Shown here piece after piece: positions 2,671-48,930 of a stretch of DNA of 64,000 nt. Every line of letters begins with the position of its first letter. Positions within the stretch are counted from its first letter, which is position 1. The DNA comes from Bacteroidaceae bacterium (lineage in GTDB: Bacteria > Bacteroidota > Bacteroidia > Bacteroidales > Bacteroidaceae). The position numbers were made by a program, and so were the translations under genes. The stretch is taken from assembly GCA_017534535.1 (NCBI GenBank), contig JAFXVZ010000028.1:1-64000 (forward strand), in the 5' to 3' direction. The notes beneath the pieces were generated by a model. That model saw only the letters and a list, made by a program, of their open reading frames with translations, ran no database searches and was not told the DNA's origin.

Positions 2671-2727
2671 TGTGAACTTTTTGTGAACTCATTTTATGCG
2701 ATGAAATGGGAGAAATTTGTATTTTTG
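2671..2727 (+). promoter_or_regulatory. Promoter with 11-bp-period direct repeat (site A), upstream of the TPR-HTH regulator
   Basis: Two perfect TGTGAACT octamers start at 2671 and 2682, an 11-bp period. The -7 box TATTTTTG lies at 2720-2727, 38 bp from the start of the second octamer. No TTTG element is seen at the -33 position, which fits an activator-dependent promoter. The regulator gene starts at 2734, almost at the expected transcription start, so autoregulation and a near-leaderless mRNA are inferred. Confidence 0.75.
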
Positions 2728-2733
2728 CCCACT

Positions 2734-4056
2734 ATGAAACAAATGGTTCATATCGTATTGGCAGTTTTGCTGTTTTGTCTCACCTCTTGTTACAGACAAA
2801 TGAGGGTAGATGAGGCATTGGCTTTGGCTGACAGTTTGTGTCAGGTCGCAAATGATAGCGTGGGAGAGGAACCTGTGATGCAGTCATTGCTCTATTATCA
2901 GCGAGCCATTGATGCTTTATCTGGCAATGATACTGCTTTCTTGGCTCGCAAGGCAAGGATATACACAAGTATGGGTGTACTGTTTGCCAAGCAAATGCTT
3001 TACAAAGAGGCCATTGGCAGATACCAATTAGCATACGAATGTGCTGAAAGTCTGAAAGACACCCTTAATATGATTTCAGCTTACAAAGGCATCGGAGATA
3101 TGTATCGCAAGCTAATTGATTTGGGCGAATCTGTTCATTACTATGACCTCGCAGAACAGTTGGCCATCCATGCTAATCAAGAAAAGCCTCGCATCTCTTT
3201 GGCACTTCGCCTGGCCACTGCTTTTTTGGAAAATGGAAGGATGAATTTAGCCGTTGAACTTTTGCCTAAGCCTCCGTATCAGGTTGAACCTGAGGATGAA
3301 GACGTCTATAACTATGTGATGTGGCATATCTATAACTTTACTGAACGTGAGGATAAGGATTCTGCTGAGTTATATATGCAGAAGTTGTTAGAATCCCAAG
3401 ATAGCTATTATCAAAGCTATGTCATCGATTGGCAAATAGGGCAGGCTCTTATCGATGCTGGTGAACGTTCAGTATATCAGTTGTATAGGAAAAATGTAAG
3501 ATTGCAAAGCGCTATGTCTAAAGAGCAGATTGCCGAGACAACATCAGCTGTTAGTACGATGTATCAGGCCTTGAACATGGAGCGTCAGAATGCCGAGCTG
3601 CAGGCTCGTAATCAGCTAATCAAGTACTATGCCATCATTGCCATTCTGCTTCTGGTATTGGTGGTAGCAATAACAGTGATCATTATCTATCGAATAATCA
3701 ATAAACGCATTCAGTTAGAGCATACCAATACGATGAGCATTCGCGACTCCGAGATCTACCAACGATTGCTTGCTACGGAGAAAGCCATGAACGAGGAAGA
3801 ACAACAAGAGGTGATAGTCCTGCTTAACCAGCTCTATCCCTCATTCCTCTCCAGTTTGCAGAAGATGGGGGTGGAGAAAGAACACGACTTGAAGGTGTGC
3901 CTCTTGCTCAAAATGGGTTTCAAGCCCTCTCGAATTGCCAGTTTGGTTAGTCGAACTGATAGTGCCATCGCCAATACCAGAGCCCGATTATATAAAAAGG
4001 TGTTTGGCATTGATGGCAAGGCAGAGGATTGGGATAAAATAATTATGAGTCTATAA
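2734..4056 (+). CDS. Membrane-bound TPR transcriptional regulator with C-terminal HTH (TPR1)
   Basis: About 440 residues from the ATG at 2734, chosen because an in-frame ATG at 2683 lies inside the operator. The N-terminus is a signal sequence ending in a lipobox-like LTSC. Residues about 40-270 contain TPR-type helices (YYQRAIDAL, YKEAIGRYQLAYECAESL, ESVHYYDLAEQLA). A coiled coil and one strong transmembrane helix (about 297-320) follow, then a LuxR-like helix-turn-helix near 390-425 (GFKPSRIASLVSRTDSAIA, then RARLYKKVFG). Topology suggests a periplasmic TPR sensor and a cytoplasmic DNA-binding end. It is closely similar to the regulator at 36869-38188, with a nearly identical C-terminal third. 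It sits directly before site B and the TlpA-like gene, its likely target. Confidence 0.85.
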   Translation: MKQMVHIVLAVLLFCLTSCYRQMRVDEALALADSLCQVANDSVGEEPVMQSLLYYQRAIDALSGNDTAFLARKARIYTSMGVLFAKQMLYKEAIGRYQLAYECAESLKDTLNMISAYKGIGDMYRKLIDLGESVHYYDLAEQLAIHANQEKPRISLALRLATAFLENGRMNLAVELLPKPPYQVEPEDEDVYNYVMWHIYNFTEREDKDSAELYMQKLLESQDSYYQSYVIDWQIGQALIDAGERSVYQLYRKNVRLQSAMSKEQIAETTSAVSTMYQALNMERQNAELQARNQLIKYYAIIAILLLVLVVAITVIIIYRIINKRIQLEHTNTMSIRDSEIYQRLLATEKAMNEEEQQEVIVLLNQLYPSFLSSLQKMGVEKEHDLKVCLLLKMGFKPSRIASLVSRTDSAIANTRARLYKKVFGIDGKAEDWDKIIMSL

Positions 4057-4084
4057 AACAGCCAATTAACAGCTTACTTTCTTT

Positions 4085-4142
4085 TGTGAACTTATTGTGA
4101 AACACCTTTTTCCTCACTTTTCTCACCTTTTTCATTACTTTG
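4085..4142 (+). promoter_or_regulatory. Promoter with 11-bp-period direct repeat (site B), upstream of TlpA-like lipoprotein
   Basis: TGTGAACT at 4085 and TGTGAAAC at 4096 are 11 bp apart. The -7-like box TTACTTTG at 4135-4142 lies 39 bp from the second octamer. The stretch ATTACTTTGT around the -7 box is shared with site D at 38218-38275. Confidence 0.75.
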
Positions 4143-4167
4143 TAGCAAAAAACATAAAAGCAAGGAT

Positions 4168-5382
4168 ATGAAAAAAACAATGAGTTTAGTGGTGGCAATG
4201 TTGGCCATCTTGATGAATGCCTGTACAAGCAGACAAGTAGATACTGACACCTATTTGCGTCAGATGCGAGAGAGGCTTGACCAGATTCAAACGGCAAGCT
4301 ATACAAGTGAAAAGTTGAGTTTTAGTCCTGGTGATCCCAATCCAAAAGCTCATTGGTTCATCAAGTATAAGGAGTATAAGAACCCAGCTGACACCACAGT
4401 AGGAACTAATTTCGTCCGATATTCGGAAGATGACAGTACCCTTGTCGAGGGAGCCTATGATGGCGAGGCGAAATACACTGTTTTTCACGAACATAAAGGC
4501 GTCATCAGGGATGACTTTACGGCAAGAAACTTGCCTTTCAGGTTGGTGTGGCCTCCTTTCTTCCGCTATGCCTATCATGTCATCGACTATGCACTTACCA
4601 CGCATGATAACATTGAATATACTTTGGTTGACTCTTTGGAGTTCTATAAATTCCACATGATTACCCATGAGCATGAACAGATTGAGTTTACTGGAGGTAA
4701 AGCCACTCATGTTGATGGAGGAGGCTATATCATTGACCCAACTTCTGAGTATGAAATATGGTTCAGTAAACAAACCAACTTACCCTATCGTATTAGACGA
4801 ACACAAGAGCATGATATCGGTGATGATACTTGCCATAATCCTGTTCTCAATGCAGAAAACCCATCCGACTTTGACATAAATGACTACCTGCCACAAGACT
4901 ATCTCATGAGGCCATACAAAGGGAAGCAACGTTCTGTGAATGATGCCAATAGTTTGTTGAATAAGCCTGCTCCTATGTGGACTCTCACAGATTTGGAAGG
5001 TAATGCTGTTTCTTTGAAAGACTTACATGCAAAGGTCATTTTGCTTGAGTTCTCTGCAACGGCTTGTGCTCCCTGCCAAGCGGTTGTGCCTTTTCTCAAA
5101 CAATTAAGAGAAGAGTATAACGAGGATGATTTGCTCATTATCACCTTTGAGTCGTGGGGAGCCAAAGATTCCACGATGAAGTTCTATGCCGAGAAGAAAG
5201 GGCTGACCTATCCCTTCATTCGGGCTACTGAGGAAATGTTGGACACTTACAAGACAGGAGGCTCTGCCCCTTGGTTTTTCCTGCTTGACAGAAGCCACTT
5301 CGTCCGCAAATCCTTTTTTGGCTTTGACGAGGGTACCACTGACCAGGAAATCAGGAATGCCATCAGGGAAATGATGAAATAG
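4168..5382 (+). CDS. TlpA-like thioredoxin-fold lipoprotein (CAPC)
   Basis: 404 residues. A lipobox (LMNAC) at about residue 19 predicts an exported lipoprotein. Residues about 25-260 form a domain I do not recognise by name, rich in beta strands. From about 270 comes a TlpA/AhpC-type thioredoxin fold with CAPC at about residues 300-303 and the cis-proline segment GGSAPWFFLLD. It is expected to act as a thiol-disulfide oxidoreductase in the periplasm. It differs from the DUF4369-TlpA proteins at 32972, 39385 and 44711 in the N-terminal domain and in the active-site dipeptide. It is preceded by site B and the TPR1 regulator. Confidence 0.82.
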   Translation: MKKTMSLVVAMLAILMNACTSRQVDTDTYLRQMRERLDQIQTASYTSEKLSFSPGDPNPKAHWFIKYKEYKNPADTTVGTNFVRYSEDDSTLVEGAYDGEAKYTVFHEHKGVIRDDFTARNLPFRLVWPPFFRYAYHVIDYALTTHDNIEYTLVDSLEFYKFHMITHEHEQIEFTGGKATHVDGGGYIIDPTSEYEIWFSKQTNLPYRIRRTQEHDIGDDTCHNPVLNAENPSDFDINDYLPQDYLMRPYKGKQRSVNDANSLLNKPAPMWTLTDLEGNAVSLKDLHAKVILLEFSATACAPCQAVVPFLKQLREEYNEDDLLIITFESWGAKDSTMKFYAEKKGLTYPFIRATEEMLDTYKTGGSAPWFFLLDRSHFVRKSFFGFDEGTTDQEIRNAIREMMK

Positions 5383-5599
5383 CTTGCCTAACTTTTTGCT
5401 TTCAGAGGAAAAATTTAAGATTGGTTCTTGCAAAAGAGTAGGATGTGCCAATTTTGACATACCCTCTTTGTTTTCGTTTTTCTTAAATTCTATGCTCTTT
5501 TTATGTTACTATTCTAAATACACCTTGTTTTATGGCAGTTTGAGAGAGATATTAATTTTCAACAAGGAAGTATAATTATCTTACGAGGGAGAAATGATG

Positions 5600-7362: not shown

Positions 7363-7366
7363 TCTT

Positions 7367-23953: not shown

Positions 23954-24298
23954 TTAAAAACTGAGCTTATACCCGTGTTCTGTCGTCTCGATGCTGAGTG
24001 TTTGATCATTAACTAATAATTCGCAAAGTTTTGATATGTAGTTGTATAAAGAGTGGTAATTCATGACTGAACCATTCCATATTGATTCCAATTCTTTGTG
24101 GGTAACTTCTTCATTCCTTTTTGAATACAACATCAACAAGATGGCAAACTCAGTCTTTGTCAGCCTTCTTTTTACAAACCCATTATATTTCAGCTCTCTG
24201 TTTTCTGCATTTAATCTGAATTTGCCTATCAAAGGCTTGACATAGCTAAACCATAGGTTTGGAGGTGCCAAACCATAGGCTTTTTCTGCATAAACCAT
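23954..24298 (-). CDS. Orphan winged-helix (OmpR/PhoB-type) DNA-binding protein without receiver
   Basis: 114 residues. From about residue 25 to the end it is a trans_reg_C winged helix: FRLNAENRELKYNG beta hairpin, LTKTEFAILLMLYSKRNE, THKELESIWNG, SLYNYISKLCELL, and the terminal ETTEHGYKLSF wing. No receiver domain precedes it; the first 22 residues are encoded by the 22-bp repeats described next. It could be a remnant of a response regulator or a free-standing regulator. Divergent from pfkA. Confidence 0.65.
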   Translation of the reverse strand: MVYAEKAYGLAPPNLWFSYVKPLIGKFRLNAENRELKYNGFVKRRLTKTEFAILLMLYSKRNEEVTHKELESIWNGSVMNYHSLYNYISKLCELLVNDQTLSIETTEHGYKLSF

Positions 24299-32851: not shown

Positions 32852-32890
32852 AGGACTTTTTTTAGGTATTTTCGCCTTTTGTCAACAAAA

Positions 32891-32937
32891 AGTGAACTGT
32901 TTGGGAACTGTTTTTCATTGCCTAAACCCTTATTTTG
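32891..32937 (+). promoter_or_regulatory. Promoter with 11-bp-period direct repeat (site C)
   Basis: AGTGAACT at 32891 and TGGGAACT at 32902 are 11 bp apart. The -7-like box TTATTTTG at 32930-32937 is 28 bp from the second octamer, one helical turn closer than in sites A, B, D, G and H. Confidence 0.7.
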
Positions 32938-32971
32938 TGGTGTTGAATTTAAAAATGAAGAAATGAAGACA

Positions 32972-34162
32972 ATGAAAACGAAGATTTGGATGATGGCAAC
33001 GCTCACTTTGATGGTGGTTGCTTGTACAGAGAAACCCGTGAGTCTTGATACACCTTATATAATAGAAGGAGAGCTGACGGGAGTAAGGGATGGGGTATCG
33101 ATTCGTCTTTCCCAAATGGATGGCAATGTAGGTACTAACTTAGCCACTGATACCATTATTGGGGGAAAGTTCCGTTTCGAGCAACAAATGCAAGACCCTG
33201 AGTTGAACAAGTTAATGCTATTGGTTACTGATAATGATTTTCCTCTTTTGGGTAAGACAATTTATGTAAAGCCAGGTGCCCGAGTGAAAATAAAAGGAAA
33301 TGGCAATCACATCATGACTTGGAAAGTGGAAAGCAAGGTGCCTGAACAACGGGCTTATGATGAATTGCAGGCGATACCCGAGTATGAAGCTTTCCAGGAG
33401 GTGGCACTTGAAAGAACGAAAATTATGAATGAATTGTTCGCAATCGACAGAAAGACAGAAAAGGAGCGTTATCGTGAAGCCTATAACCGTTATGCAGCCA
33501 ATGGTAAGCAGGCGGATTCTATCCAAAATATCATTACTGGCAAGCAAATTGAAATCATGAAGCGTACAAAGCCCTCTGAGCCTTGGCTCAGTGAGTTGTT
33601 TGATTTAGCAAGGATGTCAAACGCTTATTCTGAATATGCTTTTACTGAGGATGCCAAAGCATTGTATCAGTCTTTGCCTGAGGAAACGAAGCAGAGTAAG
33701 CAAGGTTTGGAGGTATATGCCAACCTTTATCCCCCCAAGCAGGCGTTGAATGGCGATGATTTCCCTGATGCTGACTTCTACGACCTCAATGGTAATCTGC
33801 ATCACATAGCCGAGCACAAGGGCAAATACATTTTGCTCGACTTCTGGAGTAGTGGTTGTGGGCCTTGCATTACTGCTTTTCCTGTTATGAAGCAACTTTA
33901 TGAAGAATATGGTGACAGGTTGGCTATTGTGAGTATGAGCACTGACACAGAAAGACGTTGGCGCAAGGCTTCTGCAGAGCATGATATTACTTGGAGCAAT
34001 TGGAATGAATTGAAAGGAGAGGGTGGTATCTATACCAATTATCGCATAAGCGTCACCCCTTACTATGTGTTGATTAACCCCGAGGGTAAGATAGAACAAC
34101 AGATTGAGGGCTTCAGAGAAGAACCATTCAGGGCTCTCTTCTCTGAACTATTTGAGAATTAA
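32972..34162 (+). CDS. DUF4369-TlpA thioredoxin-like lipoprotein (CGPC)
   Basis: 396 residues. The start at 32972 is chosen because it gives the same 18-residue lipoprotein signal (ending VVAC) as the paralogues at 39385, 42867 and 44711; an ATG at 32963 is possible. The DUF4369 domain (about 25-125) begins with DTPYIIEGELTGVRDG. The C-terminal TlpA domain has CGPC at about residues 296-299, and a cis-proline in SVTPYYVLINPEG. Predicted exported thiol-disulfide enzyme. First gene of an operon with a propeller lipoprotein (15 bases on) and TPR regulator 2, under site C. Confidence 0.88.
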   Translation: MKTKIWMMATLTLMVVACTEKPVSLDTPYIIEGELTGVRDGVSIRLSQMDGNVGTNLATDTIIGGKFRFEQQMQDPELNKLMLLVTDNDFPLLGKTIYVKPGARVKIKGNGNHIMTWKVESKVPEQRAYDELQAIPEYEAFQEVALERTKIMNELFAIDRKTEKERYREAYNRYAANGKQADSIQNIITGKQIEIMKRTKPSEPWLSELFDLARMSNAYSEYAFTEDAKALYQSLPEETKQSKQGLEVYANLYPPKQALNGDDFPDADFYDLNGNLHHIAEHKGKYILLDFWSSGCGPCITAFPVMKQLYEEYGDRLAIVSMSTDTERRWRKASAEHDITWSNWNELKGEGGIYTNYRISVTPYYVLINPEGKIEQQIEGFREEPFRALFSELFEN

Positions 34163-34177: not shown

Positions 34178-35200
34178 ATGAAAGAAATAGGAATTGTTGG
34201 TTTGTTGCTTGGTTTGTTGGCATTGGTTTCTTGTCAGCATGAACAACAAGTGACTGACATTCAAGAAATCGTGCCATCAGATTCCATTGAATTGGAGATT
34301 GGTCGTCAAAATAACCTCTTTGTTTATGATGACAAACTGTTTGTTACTGATACCAAGTTGATGGATGGTGCCATTCAAGTGTATGACCTCAATACAAATC
34401 AATTCTTGTTTTCTTTCGCCAATGAGATGGATCTTTATATTGACACAAATCAGGTCTCTCATTTAGATTTCTATGAGGTGAATGGTGAGGAAAGAGTGGA
34501 TATTTATGTGTTCAACAGAAAGATTGTGACCTATAACTATGAGGCTATCTTGCAAGAAAAATACAAAGCTAAGCCTTTGATGGAACGTAATGTTCATGAA
34601 AAGTTTCCACATTTCGGGCTTTTTTCTAAGACCAAGAATGGTTACATAATAACAGAAGCTCATCCTGAAGGTAAATTCCTATTACTCTCAGATTCTTTAG
34701 AACTTTTAAAACATGCAGGGAATTATCGTCCCAAGCCTGATGAATCTTATGGAGATGTAGTGCATGCTTTAGCAAACTGGGGTTATATAAGTTTATCGCC
34801 TGATAAGCGATATTTGGCTGATTGTCTGACGATGGCACCAATTATCACCCTTTATGAGTTGACCGAAAACGATATGGTGAAGCGATGGGAGTATGTAGAA
34901 GAGGAGTTGAACTATGTTCCTTTTGATGAGAATAATTATATGCCTAATATTAAGGATGGATATGTGTCTGCTTCTTTCTCAGAAAGATATCTATATGCCC
35001 TCTATGGGGATGAGCCAGAGGATGATGAGATTGGTCATTACAGGCGAGAGGTGCATGTGTTTGATATTCTGACGGGTGAAATAGTGAAGCAATATCTCCT
35101 GAATAGACCTTCTAAAGATATCGTATGGCATAGGGGTTGGTTATATGTCTTGACCTATGAGCATAGCCCCATTGTGCAGATTTACAAACTTGAGGAATAG
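34178..35200 (+). CDS. BF3164-like six-bladed beta-propeller lipoprotein
   Basis: 340 residues. The signal ends in a lipobox (LVSC) at about residue 19. The body shows repeated propeller strands (NNLFVYDDKLFVTD, IQVYDLNTNQFLFSF, YISLSPDKRYLADC, REVHVFDILTGEIVKQYLL). Family members are surface or periplasmic lipoproteins of unknown function common in Bacteroidetes. It lies between the DUF4369-TlpA gene and the TPR2 regulator, with 15 and 5 bases between. Confidence 0.75.
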   Translation: MKEIGIVGLLLGLLALVSCQHEQQVTDIQEIVPSDSIELEIGRQNNLFVYDDKLFVTDTKLMDGAIQVYDLNTNQFLFSFANEMDLYIDTNQVSHLDFYEVNGEERVDIYVFNRKIVTYNYEAILQEKYKAKPLMERNVHEKFPHFGLFSKTKNGYIITEAHPEGKFLLLSDSLELLKHAGNYRPKPDESYGDVVHALANWGYISLSPDKRYLADCLTMAPIITLYELTENDMVKRWEYVEEELNYVPFDENNYMPNIKDGYVSASFSERYLYALYGDEPEDDEIGHYRREVHVFDILTGEIVKQYLLNRPSKDIVWHRGWLYVLTYEHSPIVQIYKLEE

Positions 35201-35205
35201 ATGAA

Positions 35206-36795
35206 ATGTTAAAGCGAATCTTTTACATAGTATTGATGTGTTGCTTGATGTGTGGAGGCATCTGGTTGGTTTGGTATGGAAGCTATTCTCCTGCGATGAA
35301 TCAAGCAGAGCAATTGTTTGCTGAGTCAAGATACATTGAATTAAGGCAGATGCTTGATAGCATCAAGGGCGATATCTTGCAAGAGGGTAAGTCGGTAAGG
35401 ATGCGTTATCATCTATTGAACATCAAGACAGACAATGTCTTAGGCATTCGTCCTGCATCAGATAGCCTTGCCCTTTCTGTGGTGGATTACTATGAGCATG
35501 GAGGAAGTAAGGCCTACTTGGGCGATGCCTATTACTATGTTGGTAATATCTACCACGATTTCAATGATGCCAATAGGGCCTTGGAGTACTACCAGAAAGC
35601 CCTCGACACGATGGAGGGGATGCAAGATAAACCGACTTTGCTGGCTAAGGAGCATGTCTATGAGCAAATGGGGCATCTCTTCTATGGCCAACAACTTACT
35701 GAACAAGCCCATGAGTCGCTGAAGAAGGCACGCTCTATAGCCAAGCAATTGAATGACACCATCGGCATGATTCGCATTTATCGTGATGTTGGTAGAATAT
35801 TCTTACAAAAGAAAAACTATTTGATGGCACATCATAACCTCAATGTGGCAAACAACCTGTCTTTACTCATCAAGCGTGATGGAGGACTTTATCGCTCTGT
35901 TCTTTTGCAGGAGTGCTTGCTTTATATGGCTGAAGATGAATGGTCTTCAGTTGAAAATCTGCTCAATATGTTCCTCAAACGGCCTCGTATTACAGATGAT
36001 AAAGAAATGCTTTACACCATTGCTGGCGATTATCATGCCCACGAGCAACGTTATGACTCAGCTGCTTTTTATTACAACAAGCTTTTGCAAATGGAGTCAG
36101 TGAAAGTAAAGCGAGAGGCAAGTGGTAAACTCTTGGATGTTGCAGCTCGGGCAGGCGATAAGCAAATGGTGTTACCCTACTTGTTGAAATATCAGCAATA
36201 CACTGATTCTGTGCTGAATATCACCGATACAGAGAACATTGCCCGCATCAATGCCTTGTACAACAGTCGTCAGCTGGAACGTCAGAACGAGGCACTTCAC
36301 AAGGAGAAGCAACGATATGCCTTCTATGTCATCGTCATTTCTTTACTGATGCTTATTTTGGTGGCTGGTGCCTTGGTGTATTATCGTATGTCGAAGGCTG
36401 AGATTCAGCAACTTCGTTCCAACAATGCCTTGCTGGATGAGTTCCGTATGAAGCAAACGGATGAACGCAAGCAGATTATCATGACAAGTGAGCTTTATAA
36501 GCGACTCCAGCACTCCCTAATGCCTGCAAAAGATGCTGATTGGGAGGAAATGACCAACCTGATTAACCAAGTTTATCCAGACTTCCTCACTCGCTTGGGT
36601 ACTTTGGGTATCCTCAAAGAACAAGAGTTGAAAGTATGTATGGCCCTTAAGATGGGCTTCAAGCCAGCAGAAATTGCTCGCTTGATATCGAGGGAGAAGA
36701 ATACCGTCACCAATGCACGAGCCCGTATGTACAAGAAGGTGACAGGTAAGCCTGGCAAAGCTGAAGATTGGGATGAAGTCATCATGAAGCTATAG
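35206..36795 (+). CDS. Membrane-bound TPR transcriptional regulator with C-terminal HTH (TPR2)
   Basis: 529 residues, the longest of the four paralogues. The N-terminus is a membrane helix without a lipobox (FYIVLMCCLMCGGIWLVW). TPR repeats cover about 25-330 (GDAYYYVGNIYHDFNDANRA, ALEYYQKALDTMEG, EQMGHLFYGQQLTEQAHESL). One central membrane helix (about 371-393) is followed by a coiled coil and an HTH near 483-515 (GFKPAEIARLISREKNTVTN, then RARMYKKVTG). The recognition helix differs from TPR1, TPR3 and TPR4. Unlike them it is the last gene of its putative target operon (site C). Confidence 0.85.
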   Translation: MLKRIFYIVLMCCLMCGGIWLVWYGSYSPAMNQAEQLFAESRYIELRQMLDSIKGDILQEGKSVRMRYHLLNIKTDNVLGIRPASDSLALSVVDYYEHGGSKAYLGDAYYYVGNIYHDFNDANRALEYYQKALDTMEGMQDKPTLLAKEHVYEQMGHLFYGQQLTEQAHESLKKARSIAKQLNDTIGMIRIYRDVGRIFLQKKNYLMAHHNLNVANNLSLLIKRDGGLYRSVLLQECLLYMAEDEWSSVENLLNMFLKRPRITDDKEMLYTIAGDYHAHEQRYDSAAFYYNKLLQMESVKVKREASGKLLDVAARAGDKQMVLPYLLKYQQYTDSVLNITDTENIARINALYNSRQLERQNEALHKEKQRYAFYVIVISLLMLILVAGALVYYRMSKAEIQQLRSNNALLDEFRMKQTDERKQIIMTSELYKRLQHSLMPAKDADWEEMTNLINQVYPDFLTRLGTLGILKEQELKVCMALKMGFKPAEIARLISREKNTVTNARARMYKKVTGKPGKAEDWDEVIMKL

Positions 36796-36868: not shown

Positions 36869-38188
36869 ATGAAACATCTATTATACATATTACTCTCTTT
36901 AATGCTCAGCTTCACCTCTTGCCACAGACAAATGGGGTTGGGGGAGGCTTTGGCATTGTCAGATAATTTGTATAAAAATGGTAATGTTAGTGCGAAGGAA
37001 GAGTCCATGATGCAATCATTGCTGTACTACCAACGTGCCATCGATATATTACCTAACAAAGATACGGCTACATTATACCGTAAGGTAAGGATATACACAG
37101 AGATGGGAAGCCTCTTTGCCAAACAACTGCTCTACCAAGAGGCCATCGACAGATACCAATTGGCTTATGAATGTGCTGAAAAACTGCAAGATACCCTCAA
37201 TATGATAAAGTCCTATCAAGGGGTAGGCGATATGTATCGCAAACTGCATGATGTGGGAGAATCTGTCCATTACTACGACTTGGCAGAGCAATTGGCTGAA
37301 CAAGCAGGATTGGAGAAAGTAAGAGTATCAACAGCTCTCCGCATAGCCGCATCTTTCCTCGATAATGGCAGGTTGAACTTAATCACAGAGCTCTTGCCCA
37401 AGCCTCCTTATGAGGTTGAACCTGAGGATGAAGACATCTATAACAATGTGATGTGGCATATCTATAGTTTTACTGATCGTGAGGATAAGGATTCTGCCGA
37501 CTATTTTATGCATAAGTTGATGGAATCTCCTGACACCTATTATAAAAACTATCTCATCAATTGGCAAATAGGGGTAATGCTTAGAAATTCAAATGGAGGT
37601 ACTGGCTATCAGTTGTATAGACAGAAAGAAAGATTGGAAAGTGAAATGTCCAAAGAGCAAAGTGCCGAGGCAACATCAGCAGTAAGTACCATGTATCAAG
37701 CCTTGAACATGGAACGCCAGAATGCCGAATTGCAGGCTCGCAATCAGCTTATCAAGTACTATGCCATCATCGTCATCCTGCTTTTGGTGTTGGTGGTGAC
37801 CATCTCCGTTATCCTCATCTATCGCATCATCAACAAGCGTATTCTTTTCGAGCATACCACCACAATGACCATTCGCGACTCAGACATCTATCAACGATTG
37901 CTTGCCACAGAGAAAGCCATGAGTGATGCCGATCAGGAGGAGGTGATGACCCTGCTGAATCAACTCTACCCAGATTTCTTCCCAAGCTTGAAGAAGCTGG
38001 GAGTGGAGAAAGAACAGGACATGAAGATTTGCCTTTTGCTTAAAATGGGCTTCAAGCCCTCTCGCATAGCCAGTCTCGTAAGTCGTACAGATAGTGCCAT
38101 TGCCAACACCCGAGCCCGATTATACAAAAAGGTGTTTGGCACTGATGGCAAAGCGGAAGATTGGGATAAAGTGATTATGGAATTGTGA
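36869..38188 (+). CDS. Membrane-bound TPR transcriptional regulator with C-terminal HTH (TPR3)
   Basis: 439 residues. Signal with lipobox-like FTSC at residue 18, TPR helices (YYQRAIDILP, YQEAIDRYQLAYECAEKL, ESVHYYDLAEQLAEQAG), a coiled coil, a membrane helix near 296-320, and an HTH near 393-425 (GFKPSRIASLVSRTDSAIA, RARLYKKVFG). The C-terminal part is almost identical to TPR1, so the two are expected to bind the same DNA sequence. It is directly followed by site D and a propeller lipoprotein. Confidence 0.87.
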   Translation: MKHLLYILLSLMLSFTSCHRQMGLGEALALSDNLYKNGNVSAKEESMMQSLLYYQRAIDILPNKDTATLYRKVRIYTEMGSLFAKQLLYQEAIDRYQLAYECAEKLQDTLNMIKSYQGVGDMYRKLHDVGESVHYYDLAEQLAEQAGLEKVRVSTALRIAASFLDNGRLNLITELLPKPPYEVEPEDEDIYNNVMWHIYSFTDREDKDSADYFMHKLMESPDTYYKNYLINWQIGVMLRNSNGGTGYQLYRQKERLESEMSKEQSAEATSAVSTMYQALNMERQNAELQARNQLIKYYAIIVILLLVLVVTISVILIYRIINKRILFEHTTTMTIRDSDIYQRLLATEKAMSDADQEEVMTLLNQLYPDFFPSLKKLGVEKEQDMKICLLLKMGFKPSRIASLVSRTDSAIANTRARLYKKVFGTDGKAEDWDKVIMEL

Positions 38189-38217: not shown

Positions 38218-38275
38218 TGTGAAGTTTTTGTGAAGTCTATTTTGTACTATCATTCCATCACTTTTCATTACTTTG
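38218..38275 (+). promoter_or_regulatory. Promoter with 11-bp-period direct repeat (site D)
   Basis: TGTGAAGT at 38218 and 38229, 11 bp apart. The -7-like box TTACTTTG at 38268-38275 lies 39 bp from the second copy, as in site B. Confidence 0.75.
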
Positions 38276-38294: not shown

Positions 38295-39287
38295 ATGAAG
38301 AAGATGTTTTATTTATGTGTGGCTGTATGTCTAATGCTTTGTGGCTCAGCCTGCGATGGTACAAAGAAGTTCCAAAATGTGGTGAATGTACATGACAAGA
38401 TTCAGGTTTTTGATCCTGAAGAAGTCATGTGTAGTAAGGTTGCTACTCTGAGTGTAATGGGCGATTACCTGATTATCCGAGATTCTGGAGACCAAGGGAA
38501 ACTTTTCCATTTGTTTGACAAACACAATCTGCAATATCTCTGTAGTACTGGCGATAAGGGACAAGGTCCTGGTGAGCTAAGTGGCGCATGGAGTACTATG
38601 TACGATGAGGCTCGTCATAAGTTCTATGTGCCAGATCCTAACTACCTGAAGATTTTCAGCTTCGATATTGATAGCTTGATGAAAGATCCTGACTATTTAC
38701 CTACTGTGAAACAAGAAATTAAGAAGGATGATGGAGGAAATTATCCCTTGGATGCCATTTATGTGAATGACACCTTGGCTTATGGGAATGGGATTCAATT
38801 TTATGAAGAGAAGTATCGCTATATTGCTATGAAGTGGAATATGCAGACGGGTCAATTGTGGTTCAATCAGCATCATCAAGGTAAAAGGACTTATGGCGCC
38901 TATGTGGCTTATTCAGAGAGGCATAATCTGTTGGTACAGAGTGATGGTGCCTATGATGAGCTGACCTTTTTAGATGGCGATATGAACCTGATTCGCTATG
39001 TGAAAGGTCCTCAATGGAGTGAAGAACGTGATGCTTTGTCTCATTTTGGGAGTGTGGACTTTTATAATGACTACATCATTGTGGAGTATGATGGCACGGG
39101 ATGGGCAGAAGGTCATTATGCTCGAATCTGTTATGTGTTTGACATTCAAGGCAATTATGTCAAGACTCTCAATCTGGATTATAATATCAACACCATCAGC
39201 GTTGACGAAGAGAATGATCGTCTATACATCACTTTCATCGATGAAATCCAGTTTGGTTACTTGGATTTGAAGGGATTGTTGCCTTAA
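38295..39287 (+). CDS. BF3164-like six-bladed beta-propeller lipoprotein
   Basis: 330 residues from the ATG at 38295. Signal with a lipobox-like GSAC at about residue 20. The sequence CSTGDKGQGPGELSGAWSTM (near 80-100) is the typical glycine-rich propeller loop of BF3164-like proteins. Further blades are RHKFYVPDPNYLKIFSFD, RHNLLVQSDGAYDELTF and ENDRLYITFIDEIQFGYL. Transcribed from site D after TPR3, and followed by site E. Function unknown. Confidence 0.82.
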   Translation: MKKMFYLCVAVCLMLCGSACDGTKKFQNVVNVHDKIQVFDPEEVMCSKVATLSVMGDYLIIRDSGDQGKLFHLFDKHNLQYLCSTGDKGQGPGELSGAWSTMYDEARHKFYVPDPNYLKIFSFDIDSLMKDPDYLPTVKQEIKKDDGGNYPLDAIYVNDTLAYGNGIQFYEEKYRYIAMKWNMQTGQLWFNQHHQGKRTYGAYVAYSERHNLLVQSDGAYDELTFLDGDMNLIRYVKGPQWSEERDALSHFGSVDFYNDYIIVEYDGTGWAEGHYARICYVFDIQGNYVKTLNLDYNINTISVDEENDRLYITFIDEIQFGYLDLKGLLP

Positions 39288-39306: not shown

Positions 39307-39353
39307 AGGGAACTCTTTGGGAACTCTTTCAAGCCTTCAAAACCCTATATTTG
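39307..39353 (+). promoter_or_regulatory. Promoter with 11-bp-period direct repeat (site E)
   Basis: AGGGAACT at 39307 and TGGGAACT at 39318, 11 bp apart. -7 box TATATTTG at 39346-39353, 28 bp from the second copy. Confidence 0.75.
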
Positions 39354-39384: not shown

Positions 39385-40536
39385 ATGAAAATTAGATTTT
39401 TGATGCTGATGGTTTTGGCTTATGTGATGTTGGCTTGCAAGCCTGTGAGCCCTGATACTCCTTATTCAATAGAAGGGGAGTTGACAGGAGTAAGAGACAG
39501 TTTGGTAATCAGATTGGTTAGATGGGAGAATAACTTTGGTGAAACAATAGCCAAAGACACCATTCTGAATGGACATTTCAAGTTTGAAGGAATCATTGAT
39601 GATGTGAGCACTGACATTGAGCTATCGGTTAGAGATGAAGAGTTCCCGTCTATGAGCAGAAGGGTTTATGTAGCTCCAGGAGTAAAAGTCAAAGTGAAGG
39701 GAAGTGACAATTATATTGCTTCATGGAAGGTGGAGAGCCCACTGAAAGAACAACACATATACGATGAGATAGAAGCCCCTGCTAAGGAAGACAATCTGAT
39801 ACATCAAAAGGTGCTTATAGAGTATTACAAGAAGATGGGACTCTATAACCCTGAAAATTTTGATAGAGACGCATTGCCTATACTTTCCAAACAATTTGAT
39901 TCGATAAACAAAGTGATAGTGGATAAAGAGGTTCAACAGATGAAGAAGATGAAACCCTCTATTCCTTGGTTTGAAAAACTCTCGGCGTATGTGCGTTTGG
40001 TGAATAATGCTGAAGCCTATAGCGCACATAAACAGGAGTTTATAGATATGATCAACGCCATTCCTGATGATATGAAGCAAGACCCTATGGCTATGGAGTT
40101 GCAGGCTTTTCTCTTCCCTCCCAAGCAAGCAAAGATTGGTGATGACTATCCTGATACCGATTTCTATGATCTGCAAGGTAACCTGCATCATATCAGTGAG
40201 CTCAAGGGTAAATACATCTTACTGGACTTTTGGAGTAGGGGTTGTGGTGGTTGCTTGCAGGCAATCCCCCAAATGAAAGAAATGTATAGGGAGATGGGCG
40301 ATAAGTTGGTGATGATTAGTATCAGTCTTGACCCTGAGAAACATTGGCGCACAGCTTCAAAACAGCATGAGATTATTTGGAACAACTGGAATGAGATGAA
40401 AGGTAGAGCTGGTCTTTACACCAACTATCGCATCAATGCTATTCCGTATTATGTGCTCATCAACCCAGCAGGGAAAATCCAGGAAATCATCCTAGGCTTC
40501 AATAAAAACTATCTGATGGAGGCAATAGAATTGTAA
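39385..40536 (+). CDS. DUF4369-TlpA thioredoxin-like lipoprotein (CGGC)
   Basis: 383 residues. An 18-residue lipoprotein signal ends in VMLAC. DUF4369 domain (about 25-125) begins with PDTPYSIEGELTGVRDS. The thioredoxin fold has CGGC at about residues 287-290 and a cis-proline in NAIPYYVLINPAG. Cytosolic-type CGPC is not kept, so the redox potential may differ from its paralogues. Preceded by site E; the gene-free region after it begins with a 178-bp repeat. Confidence 0.88.
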   Translation: MKIRFLMLMVLAYVMLACKPVSPDTPYSIEGELTGVRDSLVIRLVRWENNFGETIAKDTILNGHFKFEGIIDDVSTDIELSVRDEEFPSMSRRVYVAPGVKVKVKGSDNYIASWKVESPLKEQHIYDEIEAPAKEDNLIHQKVLIEYYKKMGLYNPENFDRDALPILSKQFDSINKVIVDKEVQQMKKMKPSIPWFEKLSAYVRLVNNAEAYSAHKQEFIDMINAIPDDMKQDPMAMELQAFLFPPKQAKIGDDYPDTDFYDLQGNLHHISELKGKYILLDFWSRGCGGCLQAIPQMKEMYREMGDKLVMISISLDPEKHWRTASKQHEIIWNNWNEMKGRAGLYTNYRINAIPYYVLINPAGKIQEIILGFNKNYLMEAIEL

Positions 40537-42428: not shown

Positions 42429-42794
42429 ATGGAGAAACTAACCAAACAAGAAGAAGATGTAATGATGCTCTTCTGGCAATTGGGTAAGGCGTGTTATATC
42501 CGTGAGGTGATGGACATATATCCTGACCCCAAGCCACCTTATACCTCTGTGGCATCAACGGTGAAGAATTTGGAGCGTAAGGGCTATCTGAAATCTACCG
42601 CCAAGGGGGTGTCTTATCTCTATAGCATCAATATCTCGAAAGACAAATATCGCAAGGCGTTCATGCAGACTTGGGTAAAGGACTATTTCCATGACTCTTA
42701 TCGCCAAATGGTATCCTTTTTTGCCAAAGAACAAGCTATTTCTGCCGAAGATTTACGAGAAATCCTAAAAGAGATTGAGAAAGGCAAAATGTGA
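42429..42794 (+). CDS. BlaI/MecI-family repressor
   Basis: 121 residues. Winged helix of the penicillinase-repressor family: LTKQEEDVMMLFWQLGKACYIREVMDIY, then PPYTSVASTVKNLERKGYLKS, then a dimerisation tail SAEDLREILKEIEKGKM. Usually encoded before blaR1; here it lies after it. Its last codons overlap the first octamer of site F. Its likely operator is the dyad at 41051-41065. Confidence 0.93.
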   Translation: MEKLTKQEEDVMMLFWQLGKACYIREVMDIYPDPKPPYTSVASTVKNLERKGYLKSTAKGVSYLYSINISKDKYRKAFMQTWVKDYFHDSYRQMVSFFAKEQAISAEDLREILKEIEKGKM

Positions 42795-42836
42795 ACTTTT
42801 TGTGAACTGCTTAAAGCCTTCCAAGCCCTATCTTTG
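42790..42836 (+). promoter_or_regulatory. Promoter with 11-bp-period direct repeat (site F), before a decayed gene
   Basis: TGTGAACT at 42790 and 42801, 11 bp apart and identical to site A. -7 box TATCTTTG at 42829-42836, 28 bp from the second copy. Promoter and operator are intact although the gene behind them is broken. Confidence 0.75.
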
Positions 42837-42866: not shown

Positions 42867-42992
42867 ATGAAGATTAGATTTTTGATGCTGATGGCTTTGG
42901 ACTGTATTTTAGTGGCATGTGGGTTGAAGCCAGTGAGCCCTGATACTCTTTATATAATTGGGGGAAATGAATGGGTGGAGTTGGTGTCGTAG
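42867..42992 (+). pseudogene. Truncated DUF4369-TlpA lipoprotein gene
   Basis: The frame encodes 41 residues: an 18-residue lipoprotein signal (MKIRFLMLMALDCILVAC) close to that of the 39385 gene, the next segment KPVSPDTLYII, then ten unrelated residues and a stop. The DUF4369 and thioredoxin domains are missing. It is a remnant of a fourth paralogue with its operator still in place. An alternative is a functional lipopeptide, which seems unlikely. Confidence 0.75.
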
Positions 42993-43194: not shown

Positions 43195-44544
43195 ATGAAG
43201 ACAAGATATCTTTTAATGACTTTGATGGTGGCACTTTGTTTGGGTGCTTGTGGTACTGACAATGATGACCAAGTGATAGGGGGTAAGCCTTCGAATGAAC
43301 TGAAAACAGATGATCCTGTACCTGTAAAACCTGAAGAGCCTGAAGAACCCGAAGAACCAAGTGAACCTGAAGAACCTGTGACTCGTCATAGCTATAAACC
43401 TGTGGTACTGAATGAGGTACAGCAGGCCATCCATGTTAAGTTGCAGGCTTTTTCGTGGAAACTGTTCAAAGAGGTTTATATTAACCGTGAGCCAGGTACT
43501 AACCTGATGATTTCTCCCATCAGTTTGGAGGTAGATTTGGGTATGTTCATCAATGGCTTGGAGGGTGAGACCTTGCAAGAAGTGTTGAAGACTTTGGGCT
43601 TGGAAAGCTTCACCAAAGATCAAATCAACGATTTCTTCAAGACGATGATGAAAGGTATAGAGAGTGCCGATGAAGCGGCCATCTTCAAGAGTGCCAACGC
43701 ATTCTGGCATAATCAAAATAAGAAGGCAACGCAGGATTTTTTGTCTGTCATCAAAGACAAATATGATGCTAAGGCGGAAGCTGTGAATTTCAGTGACCCC
43801 ACCACCAAGGACATCATCAACGCTTGGTGTTCAGAGAAGACCAATAAACGTATTGAGAAGATGGTGGATGAAACCGATGAACTTCATTTGTTCCATCTCA
43901 TGAATGCTGTGTATTTCAAGGCACAATGGGAAGATCAGTTTGTGAAGGAATTCACTCAAAAACAGCCCTTCCATTATGCCGATGGGATAAAAGCGGATGT
44001 GGATATGATGTTTCAGCAATTCAATACCTCATACGCAGAGACCGACAAATATCAGCAATGTGTGAAACCTTTTGTTGATGGGTCTTTCCAGATGGTATTC
44101 ATCTTGCCGAAGGAAGGTGTGGATTTGGTGGATGCGATACCTGATTCCATTGACTATAAGGTAAGAGCAACAGCTGAGGTATATCCAGGGAAGCCCGAGT
44201 GGGAAGAAGTGGCGTTGTCTGTACCGAAATTCACGTCTGAATATACAGAAGAGAATCTGTTTCCTTATATGGGTAACATCAATCCTTCGCTTGTATTCTT
44301 GCCAGAAGATATGAAGTTCTTTGAGAATCCTTCGCCGGAAGTGGAATTGAAGGCCTTGCAGAAAACATTTTTCCTGATGGATGAGGAAGGTGCTGAAGCA
44401 GCTGCTATAACTGACATTATGATGAAAGATACTGCCTTTTTCCCAGATAAAGTGTTTAATATGACGCTCGACCGTCCTTTCATCTATGCCATCATAGAGA
44501 GCAACACCCAATGCCCACTCTTCATTGGCTATTATGGAAACTAA
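43195..44544 (+). CDS. Serpin-family lipoprotein (protease inhibitor)
   Basis: 449 residues. Lipobox LGAC at about residue 19, then a proline/glutamate-rich linker (about 45-65, EEPEEPEEPSEPEEP) that would hold the inhibitor off the membrane. The serpin fold runs from about 75: NLMISPISLEVDLGMFINGL, FKSANAFWHNQ, FHLMNAVYFKAQWEDQF, and VALSVPKFTSEY. The reactive-centre hinge is MDEEGAEAAAIT (about 395-406), the small-residue form of inhibitory serpins. The C-terminal DRPFIYAIIESNTQCPLFIGYYGN is canonical. By counting from the hinge the P1 site falls near the KDTA segment, within a residue or two. It likely protects the cell envelope from serine proteases. Confidence 0.95.
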   Translation: MKTRYLLMTLMVALCLGACGTDNDDQVIGGKPSNELKTDDPVPVKPEEPEEPEEPSEPEEPVTRHSYKPVVLNEVQQAIHVKLQAFSWKLFKEVYINREPGTNLMISPISLEVDLGMFINGLEGETLQEVLKTLGLESFTKDQINDFFKTMMKGIESADEAAIFKSANAFWHNQNKKATQDFLSVIKDKYDAKAEAVNFSDPTTKDIINAWCSEKTNKRIEKMVDETDELHLFHLMNAVYFKAQWEDQFVKEFTQKQPFHYADGIKADVDMMFQQFNTSYAETDKYQQCVKPFVDGSFQMVFILPKEGVDLVDAIPDSIDYKVRATAEVYPGKPEWEEVALSVPKFTSEYTEENLFPYMGNINPSLVFLPEDMKFFENPSPEVELKALQKTFFLMDEEGAEAAAITDIMMKDTAFFPDKVFNMTLDRPFIYAIIESNTQCPLFIGYYGN

Positions 44545-44627: not shown

Positions 44628-44684
44628 AGTGAATTTTTTGTGAACTCTTTTTTGCCATCAAAAGAAGTTTTATTCGTATTTTTG
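44628..44684 (+). promoter_or_regulatory. Promoter with 11-bp-period direct repeat (site G)
   Basis: AGTGAATT at 44628 and TGTGAACT at 44639, 11 bp apart. -7 box TATTTTTG at 44677-44684, 38 bp from the second copy, as in site A. Confidence 0.75.
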
Positions 44685-44710
44685 ACCGTTAAATCATGAA
44701 ATTGTCAGAA

Positions 44711-45898
44711 ATGAAAGCAAATTATTTGATGACAGCAGTCCTGACTTTAATGCTGACTGCTTGTACAGAGAAACCCGTGAGTCCTGATACACCTTATATC
44801 ATAGATGGTGAGGTGACTGGGGTAAAAGATGGTGTTGAGTTAGTGCTTGCCTCGTTTGACGGTGATGTGGGTAACCTCATTGCAAGAGACACCATTTTTG
44901 GTGGGAAGTTCCATTTCGAGAGTCAGATGGAAGACATTGAGGTAAACAGGTTGGGCTTATTTGCTGTGGATGACGATTTCTCAAGTCTAAAAAGATACAT
45001 ATATGTAGCACCTGGTGCCCATGTGAAGGTTACAGGAAATGGCACACACATTATGTCTTGGAAGGTTCAGAGCAAAGTGCCTGAGCAAAAAGCCCTTGAT
45101 GAACTGTATGCGATTCATGAATATGATTTTACACAAGATGTGCTTGTGGCAGAGAAGAAAGCACTCAAGGAAATGCGGAGCATAGACCGCAATGCGGAAC
45201 CAGAGCGTTATGCGGAAGCAAGGAGTCGTTATAATACTTTTTTTAATCAGCAAGATTCTATGTATTATGTTGTTCAAGAGAAACGTGCTTTGCTGATGAA
45301 AAACCTGAAACCATCTATGCCTTGGATGACAGAATTGAATTATCTAGCCAGGATGGTTCGTACTATGCCAGAATTGACTTATGCAGAAGATGTGAAGGAG
45401 ATGTTTCAAACTTTGTCTGAGGAATGGAAGCAAACCAAGTTGGGGAAGGAGATTTATGCCAACCTCTATCCTCCTCAGGAAGTGAAAGTTGGCGATGATT
45501 GTCCGGATGCTGATTTCTACGACCTTGAGGGCAATCTGCACCATCTGACAGAGCACAAGGGTAAGTATATCCTGCTTGACTTCTGGAATAGTGGATGTGC
45601 AGGTTGCATCCAAGCATTCCCTAAAATGAAGAAGCTTTATGAAAAGTATAATGACAAATTAGCCATTGTGAGTATGAGCATTGATACTGATCGTCGTTGG
45701 CGTATGGCATCAGAGAAGCACAACCTCACTTGGAGCAACTGGAACGAAGGTAAAGGCGAGGGTGGCTTATATACCAATTTCCGTACCAATGGCATACCTT
45801 TTTATGTATTGGTGAATCCAGAGGGCAAGGTCATAAAGATGGAGCTTGGCTATTTGGAAGATAATTTCAGTGCCCTCTTCACCGAATTGTTTGATTAA
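44711..45898 (+). CDS. DUF4369-TlpA thioredoxin-like lipoprotein (CAGC)
   Basis: 395 residues from the ATG at 44711, which matches the 18-residue signal of the paralogues (ending LTAC); an ATG at 44696 is possible but lies only a few bases after the expected transcription start. DUF4369 domain starts with PDTPYIIDGEVTGVKDG. The thioredoxin domain has CAGC at about 296-299, the cis-proline in NGIPFYVLVNPEG, and the shared WSNWNEGKGEGGLYTN. It is most like the 32972 protein. Preceded by site G and the serpin gene. Confidence 0.88.
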   Translation: MKANYLMTAVLTLMLTACTEKPVSPDTPYIIDGEVTGVKDGVELVLASFDGDVGNLIARDTIFGGKFHFESQMEDIEVNRLGLFAVDDDFSSLKRYIYVAPGAHVKVTGNGTHIMSWKVQSKVPEQKALDELYAIHEYDFTQDVLVAEKKALKEMRSIDRNAEPERYAEARSRYNTFFNQQDSMYYVVQEKRALLMKNLKPSMPWMTELNYLARMVRTMPELTYAEDVKEMFQTLSEEWKQTKLGKEIYANLYPPQEVKVGDDCPDADFYDLEGNLHHLTEHKGKYILLDFWNSGCAGCIQAFPKMKKLYEKYNDKLAIVSMSIDTDRRWRMASEKHNLTWSNWNEGKGEGGLYTNFRTNGIPFYVLVNPEGKVIKMELGYLEDNFSALFTELFD

Positions 45899-47228: not shown

Positions 47229-47257
47229 CATTCAGTTTTTTTATAAAATGTTAGTGT

Positions 47258-47692
47258 CTATTTCAAGCAAAGCTGATAGCCAACACCTCTGATATTCTCT
47301 ATCCTTATATTGGGGTCTGCTTTGAGTATCTTTCTTAACTGACAGATAAGGTTATTGATAGACTGGTCGATGACGATGACATCAGGCCACAGCATGCGGC
47401 AAATCTCTTCACGAGTCACCGTCATGTTCATGCAGACATAAAGGAGTGTAAGCAACTTGGTTTGGTAGGCAGAGAGGCGAGTGATTTGACCGTTTCCCTC
47501 TAATATCATGCTATTTGGCTGGAAGGTGAACAAGCCAATACTGATGTGCTTGTCCATCAAAATTACATCAGGTGCTATTTCCCTTACCTGCTGACCGAGC
47601 TCATTGGGACTACCTGTCTGCATGTCTTTATCTTGCAAGGCTCGCTCTAAGCTTACCTGCATATCCTTATCTTCTATTATTAGTATCTTCAT
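47258..47692 (-). CDS. Response-regulator-like protein with a half-length receiver and winged helix
   Basis: 144 residues. Residues 1-48 are the first half of a receiver: MKILIIEDKD with the acidic pair, one helix, and DVILMDK with the phosphoryl-acceptor-like Asp at about 47. The second half of the receiver is absent; a PhoB-type winged helix starts at once (ITRLSAYQTKLLTLLYVC, TREEICRMLWPDVIVID, SINNLICQLRKIL, ENIRGVGYQL). The paralogue at 60048 has the same architecture, so this is not a recent truncation. It overlaps the upstream propeller gene by four bases and has a propeller gene downstream. Confidence 0.82.
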   Translation of the reverse strand: MKILIIEDKDMQVSLERALQDKDMQTGSPNELGQQVREIAPDVILMDKHISIGLFTFQPNSMILEGNGQITRLSAYQTKLLTLLYVCMNMTVTREEICRMLWPDVIVIDQSINNLICQLRKILKADPNIRIENIRGVGYQLCLK

Positions 47693-48846
47693 TTGGCTGT
47701 CAGTATCATCAAAACAGGGTTGGAGTCTTCATTCAATGTAGAGGCGATTTCCTTCAGTTTGCCTTTGAGCTCCCCTTTCTCGTATGCTTCTATCAGCTTG
47801 TGGGCTTGCAAAGCCTTGATGCAAGTTTCCTTACCGTTGATAATACCCCTCATTAAATCCACTTGCTCAGGTCGGGTATAATCGTCGTTCAGCACCTCCA
47901 CCTTGAAGAATTCGTTCATCTCTCTGTCATACACTAATTTGTTACGTGGAAAACCCTTGCCTGTCTGGGCATCAAATATTCTGTCCATCGTTTCCATGAA
48001 TATATAGCGAGGGGTGATGGCACCAATGGCCAACAGCCTTTCCGGCTCTTCCTTGGGAATCTTCACCAAGAAAGGTTCTTTCTGATAATCTTTGGCGGAA
48101 AATCGATAGATGGTGTCAGACGAGTTTTGTACAATCAGCACATCATCTTCTATGGGGATCACTGTGCGCAAAGCATCCATAGCCACTACATCGCCTTCTA
48201 TTACCATGGGCACTCTAATCTTCTCAAATGGTATAGGTATCTCCTGTACAATGCTTCCATCTTGCTTAGAAAGCATATAATGATAGATGCGGGTTGTGTC
48301 TATCTCTTTGTTCTCCATTATCATGCTTGCCACATCGTACATAATGGCATCGTCGAGGCAAACTAAATAGTCTTTGTCGAAAAGGGTGATGTCGTCATAG
48401 TGGTGGTCTTCACCATAATTGAAACTGCGTTTGAAGTTGCCTTGCAGGTCATAAACCAACATCCTTTGTGTGTTTGTGTCGCTCACAAACAGCTCATTGT
48501 TCGCTTCGTCCATCTCCACATCGTATGGGAAGGTATATTCTTCTGCCCCTTGTCCTTTGCGGTCTATCACACTGATACCCTTTCCTGTTTGCTTGTCGAA
48601 GAGTTTCAAAGTGCTACTATTGACCATTACGATAAACTTTTCCCCAATTGTTTTTATATTAGTAGTGATAAACTCGTCCGAGCTCTCCAAGGGTACATAT
48701 TGCACCTCCATGAAGTCCTGTAAGATTAGTTCCTTTTCTGGGTAATCCAGATTTAAGTCGATGGTGATTAATCCATCGGTTTTGATGTTACTTTGGCAAG
48801 AGGCCATCAGTAATCCTATCAACATCCATACAATAATTCGTTTCAT
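47689..48846 (-). CDS. BF3164-like six-bladed beta-propeller lipoprotein
   Basis: 385 residues from the ATG at 48846. Lipobox LMASC. The propeller begins with LILQDFMEVQYVPLESSDEF and contains GKGISVIDRKGQGAEEYTFPYDV and TQRMLVYDLQGNFKRSFNYG. First gene of a three-gene operon (propeller, half-receiver regulator, propeller) driven from site H. Paralogue of the 46083 gene. Confidence 0.85.
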   Translation of the reverse strand: MKRIIVWMLIGLLMASCQSNIKTDGLITIDLNLDYPEKELILQDFMEVQYVPLESSDEFITTNIKTIGEKFIVMVNSSTLKLFDKQTGKGISVIDRKGQGAEEYTFPYDVEMDEANNELFVSDTNTQRMLVYDLQGNFKRSFNYGEDHHYDDITLFDKDYLVCLDDAIMYDVASMIMENKEIDTTRIYHYMLSKQDGSIVQEIPIPFEKIRVPMVIEGDVVAMDALRTVIPIEDDVLIVQNSSDTIYRFSAKDYQKEPFLVKIPKEEPERLLAIGAITPRYIFMETMDRIFDAQTGKGFPRNKLVYDREMNEFFKVEVLNDDYTRPEQVDLMRGIINGKETCIKALQAHKLIEAYEKGELKGKLKEIASTLNEDSNPVLMILTAK

Positions 48847-48873
48847 CTTTTCAGCGTTTTTGGTTAGTTGCTG

Positions 48874-48930
48874 CAAAAGTAATTGTTAGTGTGTATAGAT
48901 GCAAAAAAGAAGGTTTACAAAAAATTTACA
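48874..48930 (-). promoter_or_regulatory. Promoter with variant 11-bp-period direct repeat (site H)
   Basis: On the minus strand TGTAAATT (48930 to 48923) and TGTAAACC (48919 to 48912) are 11 bp apart, with -7 box TACTTTTG at 48881 to 48874, 38 bp from the second copy. The octamer has A where the other sites have G (TGTAAA for TGTGAA). It lies directly after the TPR4 regulator gene. Confidence 0.7.

Follow-up and report, generated by a model that had tools for sequence, protein, structure and literature searches.

We show that 11-bp direct repeats precede a set of promoters in a 64,000-bp stretch of DNA (hereafter the window) from Bacteroidaceae bacterium (assembly GCA_017534535.1, contig JAFXVZ010000028.1, positions 1 to 64,000), and that repeats of the same period stand beside genes for tetratricopeptide repeat helix-turn-helix (TPR-HTH) proteins in relatives. 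The repeats are very probably operators of these neighbouring proteins, predicted to be located in the membrane, which would bind head to tail, would mostly control the adjacent operon and would likely activate it. The repeats, their lag, their spacing to the promoter box, their adjacency to regulator genes and the co-variation of half-site and recognition helix were all computed.

A repeat site in the window was taken as two octamers with an exact 11-bp period ahead of a -7-like box. An earlier note on this DNA had named eight such sites, in front of five TlpA-like genes, two propeller lipoprotein genes and one TPR-HTH gene; all eight were found where it had placed them, with the exact period and the genes as described, the TlpA-like gene after 42790 surviving only as a remnant of 34 codons (42867-42968). 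Between the two octamers, eight of eight positions are identical in 2671, 38218 and 42790, seven in 39307, and six in 4085, 32891, 44628 and 48930(-). The pattern TGTGAACT-N3-TGTGAACT with up to 3 mismatches matched 9 times in the window against 0.79 expected (shuffle maximum 4). These nine include 34142, which has no apparent role, and 32880, a third repeat in register with 32891; they do not include 48930(-). That site belongs to the TGTAAA type, which accompanies TPR4-like proteins, and the other window sites are mostly TGTGAA. Since the promoters at 39307 and 42790 are near-duplicates, the eight sites are not fully independent. Over the source genome, the TGTGAACT repeat with up to 2 mismatches gave 7 matches, whereas the reversed pattern gave 2; six of the 7 are in the window, and the seventh (C13:54497) is separated by 8.3 kb from another TPR-HTH gene. 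When 3 mismatches were allowed, there were 28 matches against 19 in the control; the window accounts for 9 of them and the C13 cluster for 3, and the remaining 16 put the TGTGAACT repeat at background elsewhere in this genome.

The promoter boxes were compared with TAnnTTTG, the -7 element of Bacteroides. Five of the eight sites fit it; 4085, 32891 and 38218 have TTAnTTTG. The gap between repeat and box falls into two classes about one helical turn apart, which the note had missed: 32891, 39307 and 42790 have 20 bp, and the other five sites 30-31 bp. In the relatives, gaps scanned from 5 to 60 bp gave a peak at 28-34 bp and a minor rise at 19-20 bp, in a profile that takes in overlapping registers and overlapping loci, and the repeats usually end 30-31 bp ahead of the box. 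A missing -33 element, which the note had remarked on at several sites, was rejected as a defining trait, as TTG occurred in the expected stretch of 5/20 repeat promoters and 13/43 control promoters.

The loci of relatives comprised 48 from named contigs (L078-L118 used) together with further genomes, the named sources being ruminant Bacteroidaceae, B. cellulosilyticus, B. timonensis, Xylanibacter rarus and others. They were searched for self-similar octamers with no motif supplied. Near boxes, 51 repeats were found at lag 11 (35 perfect; 61 loci, overlapping ones included), while each of the other lags between 8 and 22 gave 0-10. Within 180 bp around the stop codon of core regulators, lag 11 was present in 50 of 89 cases (32 perfect), against 0-16 (0-5 perfect) for 18 other lags; this set is non-redundant except for at least one entry (L028), which duplicates the window protein TPR3 in truncated form. 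Further loci, partly from the same genomes as the first set, gave lag 11 in 36/60 (27 perfect) and nine other lags in 1-18 (0-10 perfect), the highest being lag 12. Lag 11 was the sole clearly enriched period around regulator stops. The repeat was followed by a box 26-36 bp further on in 39 of the 89 regulators, and in these the site starts 7-117 bp past the regulator stop (median 34).

The earlier note had read the repeats as one shared operator, bound by a protein dimer in head-to-tail arrangement and to be sought by a genome scan. Two copies of TGTGAACT gave 94 matches in 61 relatives against 71 in controls; five cluster-bearing genomes (G000, G006, G022, G026 and G028) contributed 32 against 6, and the other 56 gave 62 against 65. 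A universal operator was rejected on these counts, and the literal word rises above background only in the five genomes. The general form of the prediction did hold, in that repeats of lag 11 only are enriched near the TPR-HTH family and the half-site tracks the helix. What emerged in place of the shared operator is a family of regulator-specific ones with a half-site consensus of about TG[TC]nnAnT, the versions found being TGTGAACT, TGTGAAGT, TGTAAACT, TGTAAAGT, TGCGTACT, TGCACACA, CGCACAAA, TGTACATT, TGCAAACT and TGTCAATT. Repeats of TGTAAACT with up to 1 mismatch occurred 12 times in 4 of 7 genomes (control 0), 11 of them no further than about 8 kb from a TPR-HTH gene. Among six perfect TGCGTACT repeats in seven genomes, five stand beside a TPR-HTH gene; B. 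cellulosilyticus (G188), with about 6.9 Mb of sequence, has a single perfect repeat, which immediately follows the regulator gene.

For the co-variation of regulator and half-site, 43 clean sites out of 51 (eight dropped as unclean) were grouped into 28 clusters at 65% identity, kinship being handled by this clustering and by partial correlation only. In 500 column-by-base tests across the clusters, the highest score fell to residue 431 and base 3 (z 10.1) and the next to residue 427 and base 5 (z 6.2); both residues are in the recognition helix, four residues apart. In the first copy, residue 431 fits base 3 in 27/28 clusters: Ser or Thr goes with C in 15/16 (the other has A), and Asn, Ala, Leu or Lys goes with T in 12/12. 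Residues 426-427 go with base 5, where Glu at 427 is paired with C (5/5 clusters), Gln with T (4/4) and Ser with A (11/16, three of the remaining five having Lys before Ser). When 97 sliding segments were compared by partial correlation with overall similarity removed, those of the recognition helix were best (r 0.27; 0/2000 permutations). An extra half-site 41-42 bp upstream was seen in about 5 of the 28 clusters. The base rule was fixed before it was applied to test sites, and a site was counted as novel when its regulator was at most 65% identical to the training ones; these figures are given separately because several test loci came from training genomes (identity 100). For base 3 in both copies the rule was right in 23/24 of all clean sites and in 11/11 novel ones, a count weakened by two pairs of close kin (94% and 83%), which leave nine independent cases. 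The C-terminal domain of the TPR regulators, which the note had put forward as a candidate reader, is thus favoured by the tracking between half-site and the neighbour's helix, and the neighbouring TPR-HTH protein is the most likely binder because the half-site follows its helix and the rule predicts base 3.

Several results weigh against this reading. The rule for base 5 was right in only 7/11 novel and 15/23 of all clean sites, and the four novel misses are all Lys-Ser helices. Nine of the 11 novel sites have C at base 3. Unclean sites (8/51 in training, 11/35 in the test) were left out, and in the 11 of the test base 3 fits both copies in 6. The rest of the domain, too, shows a correlation with the motif (r 0.23; 2/2000 permutations), which weakens when the helix is removed (r 0.12; 48/2000) but does not vanish, so that kinship was not fully removed. 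A lag-11 repeat is missing near the stop of 39/89 and 24/60 regulators, including TPR2 of the window, which has none within 200 bp after its stop. The true orthologue, in G001, of the Bacteroides protein BT3442 has none behind its gene, and of three other distant TPR-HTH genes two are without a repeat and the third has a repeat without a box. The 2.7-kb locus of the sixth perfect TGCGTACT repeat (G200) contains no match to the family, and four TGTGAAGT matches in G022 resemble a dispersed element. A search of solved structures by sequence found no convincing relative, the best match being ribosome recycling factor, apparently by chance. Because sites were chosen by self-similarity, some of the likeness between their copies is built in, but this choice produces neither the contrast between lags nor the link with the helix.

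The TPR-HTH proteins have a signal-like N-terminus followed by a TPR region, and the HTH is C-terminal. A strong membrane segment was predicted in 76/78 full-length members and a lipobox, by a rule we set, in 39/78. The window TPR proteins gave no match to kinase or receiver domains, and with a membrane helix and a DNA-binding domain the proteins fit a transmembrane one-component regulator by their domains. The Pfam TPR cut-off is passed only by TPR2, whereas TPR1, TPR3 and TPR4 match below it. The matches of 35 C-terminal domains were weak: GerE in 5/35 (at E 1; best E-value 0.0015), HTH_23 in 3, Sigma70_r4_2 in 2 and HTH_Crp_2 in 2. The TPR1 domain did not match the GerE model, and the winged helix Trans_reg_C was absent among the 25 listed of the 44 families matched by the 35 domains. 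Core members were present in 67/158 genus genomes, with up to ten per genome.

From the repeats and the protein layout we infer a mechanism in which the TPR-HTH protein would be a membrane one-component regulator that crosses the membrane by a single helix, its TPR part probably facing the periplasm and its HTH, which bears a weak likeness to LuxR or sigma-4 domains, lying in the cytoplasm. Two HTH domains, arranged head to tail as a dimer, would occupy the two half-sites one helical turn apart. The repeat is usually centred some 40 bp upstream of the -7 box, which would place the bound protein just upstream of RNA polymerase, most likely recruiting it. Residue 431 would read base 3 and residues 426-427 base 5, giving paralogues separate addresses. 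The regulator would mostly control the operon directly behind it and in the window perhaps its own gene too; the repeat at 2671..2689 is possibly an autoregulatory site of TPR1. In relatives the controlled genes would include those for NVEALA peptides, DUF3244 proteins and TonB receptors, and the TPR part may sense a product or partner of the operon.

The same proteins might act as repressors, notably at the three 20-bp sites, which overlap the -33 region. These window sites and the minor 19-20-bp rise in relatives lie one turn nearer the box, and TTG in the -33 stretch is about as frequent as in controls, as repression would allow; the main repeat position, however, is upstream of the core promoter, where activators usually bind, and we consider repression unlikely. 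That the repeats merely spread with duplicated promoter-gene cassettes and do not function as operators would agree with the near-duplicate promoters at 39307 and 42790 and with the copies of the TGTGAAGT element in G022, but it hardly accounts for half-sites and flanks that differ across clusters while the period and box distance stay, nor for half-sites that follow the regulator helix, and we give it almost no credence.

Winged-helix proteins of the OmpR/PhoB type would be natural binders of such repeats. According to the available part of PMC4832192, the PhoP box of this family is a tandem direct repeat of a 7-bp motif with a 4-bp spacer, giving an 11-bp period as in the TPR-HTH loci; two mini-regulators of the window, 47258-47692(-) and 60048-60485(-), carry Trans_reg_C, one of them within the propeller cluster, and ordinary OmpR-type regulators are nearly ubiquitous (54/60 genomes match at E 1e-8). 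Close relatives of the mini-regulators (E < 1e-30), however, occur in only 3/60 genus genomes (G000 twice, G028 and G006), on which ground they were rejected as the general binder. The repeats adjoin TPR-HTH genes also where no such relative exists, as in G022 and B. cellulosilyticus, and no third protein explains why the half-site tracks the TPR-HTH recognition helix; binding by OmpR/PhoB-type proteins is accordingly very improbable. These are two-component winged-helix response regulators, whereas the TPR-HTH proteins, our preferred binders, are by sequence membrane one-component proteins with another HTH type.

A second known system with this repeat form is that of the Streptomyces SARP/AfsR regulators. 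In the portions of PMC10936776 available, AfsR has a TPR domain, and its direct repeats, 11 bp or one turn apart, accompany a poor -35 element. The SARP DNA-binding domain is N-terminal, whereas the TPR-HTH proteins have a C-terminal HTH that is not winged-helix by sequence, and a membrane helix. With its centre at -29.5, the AfsR box overlaps the -35 element, and the 3' repeats of SARPs are 8 bp from the -10; between the end of the TPR-HTH repeats and the -7 box there are 20 or 30-31 bp. Transmembrane transcription regulators, membrane-located DNA-binding proteins abundant in Bacteroidia as far as the available text of PMC10269533 goes, share the membrane location and DNA-binding domain predicted here, but LuxR, GerE, lipobox and TPR have no occurrence in its main text. 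BT3442 is a Bacteroides TPR protein heading a lipoprotein cluster, whose neighbour BT_3441 has an Ig-like fold (PMC2954219, in part). Its family (NCBIfam NF053779) has weak full-length similarity to TPR2 and TPR4, but these score 28.9-46.5 bits (TPR4 44.5, TPR2 46.5; TPR1 not listed) against a cut-off of 940. With scores so far below the cut-off and no repeat behind its true orthologue, BT3442 was rejected as a family name. The open-access literature search returned no paper for NVEALA, and the available parts of PMC10434189 and PMC10352776 hold no information on DNA sites of TPR-HTH regulators. In the open-access literature as far as available, subscription papers and preprints being outside its scope, no operator is described for the family. 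The one-turn direct repeat is thus a form known outside Bacteroidetes, in OmpR/PhoB proteins and SARPs, and its use by the TPR-HTH family appears to be new.

Table 1. Repeats and genes of the window.
Feature	Position	Strand	Remarks
11-bp direct repeat TGTGAACT-N3-TGTGAACT	2671..2689	+	30 bp before box 2720-2727; ahead of TPR1
TPR1	2734..4056	+	lipobox-like start, TPR region, one membrane segment, C-terminal HTH; recognition helix SRTDSAIANTRAR
11-bp direct repeat	4085..4103	+	31 bp before box 4135-4142; directly after TPR1 stop, ahead of TlpA1
TlpA1-like lipoprotein	4168..5382	+	
Three half-site-like octamers (32880, 32891, 32902), 11-bp period	32880..32909	+	20 bp before box 32930-32937; precedes TlpA2, then same-direction 34178-35200, TPR2 and TPR3
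TlpA2-like lipoprotein	32963..34162	+	thioredoxin fold; DUF4369 match below cut-off
TPR2, TPR-transmembrane-HTH paralogue	35206..36795	+	
TPR3	36869..38188	+	73% identical to TPR1
11-bp direct repeat TGTGAAGT x2	38218..38236	+	31 bp before box 38268-38275; directly after TPR3 stop, ahead of propeller lipoprotein
Propeller lipoprotein	38295..39287	+	TolB_like
11-bp direct repeat	39307..39325	+	20 bp before box 39346-39353; ahead of TlpA3
TlpA3-like lipoprotein	39385..40536	+	
11-bp direct repeat TGTGAACT x2	42790..42808	+	20 bp before box 42829-42836; ahead of decayed TlpA remnant
11-bp direct repeat	44628..44646	+	30 bp before box 44677-44684; ahead of TlpA4
TlpA4-like lipoprotein	44696..45898	+	
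Propeller lipoprotein	47689..48846	-	DUF5128
11-bp direct repeat, TGTAAA type	48912..48930	-	30 bp before box 48874-48881; directly after TPR4 stop, ahead of propeller lipoprotein 47689-48846
TPR4, TPR-transmembrane-HTH	48940..50340	-	recognition helix SRTDSAISNGRMR

The genes downstream of the repeats are of the TlpA-like and propeller lipoprotein type in the window, and include NVEALA peptides at L058 and a TonB receptor at L064. A DUF3244 protein is encoded by the first gene behind 6/9 regulators tested by Pfam, and BT_3441 is presumably DUF3244-like. Small Cys-rich peptides resembling those with Gly-Gly leaders lie behind DUF3244-type genes of TPR-HTH loci (L242:2919-3134 and L218:2392-2580(-)) and are perhaps modified-peptide precursors. 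A serpin gene (43195-44544) is located inside the lipoprotein cluster of the window, and serpin-like genes are also present in the L058 and L062 clusters.

Other repeats and genes were observed in passing. The dispersed TGTGAAGT element of G022 (L065, L066, L067 and L068) has shared flanks and is apparently unrelated to TPR-HTH promoters. Repeats of TGTGACCT with an 11-bp period stand 28-29 bp before a -7-like box at L075:15238(-) and L076:3306, preceding putative mobile-element integrase genes (judged by eye). At L352 (G188:C62:658344), an imperfect repeat (TTCGTACT/TGCGAACT), followed after about 31 bp by TACATTTG, lies upstream of a long open frame, a putative SusC-like gene and possible distant target. 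The two mini-regulators of the window are 144-145 aa long, begin with a strongly shortened receiver-like part and carry a winged helix of the OmpR type; only 2 other genomes of the 60 hold close relatives. A 114-aa protein (23954-24298(-)) has a Trans_reg_C match below threshold. The proteins of 51716-52432(-) and 54807-55523(+), closely similar over the first 60 residues compared, have oppositely oriented genes that flank a response regulator and kinase (52597-54632).

A wider proposal is that Bacteroides and relatives have a large, hitherto undescribed family of membrane-anchored TPR-HTH activators with a two-contact code on one-turn direct repeats, each controlling only its own adjacent secreted-lipoprotein, peptide or antagonism locus and sensing the locus product through a periplasmic TPR part; as a whole this may or may not hold, and we lean slightly to the doubtful side. 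For the TPR-HTH family, a DNA target had not been described before in the open-access literature, so far as that literature was available. The repeat would be a readable address for many of these regulators, from which target operons may be predicted by sequence, and it would connect lipoprotein and secreted loci whose purpose is unknown with a switch that can be tested.

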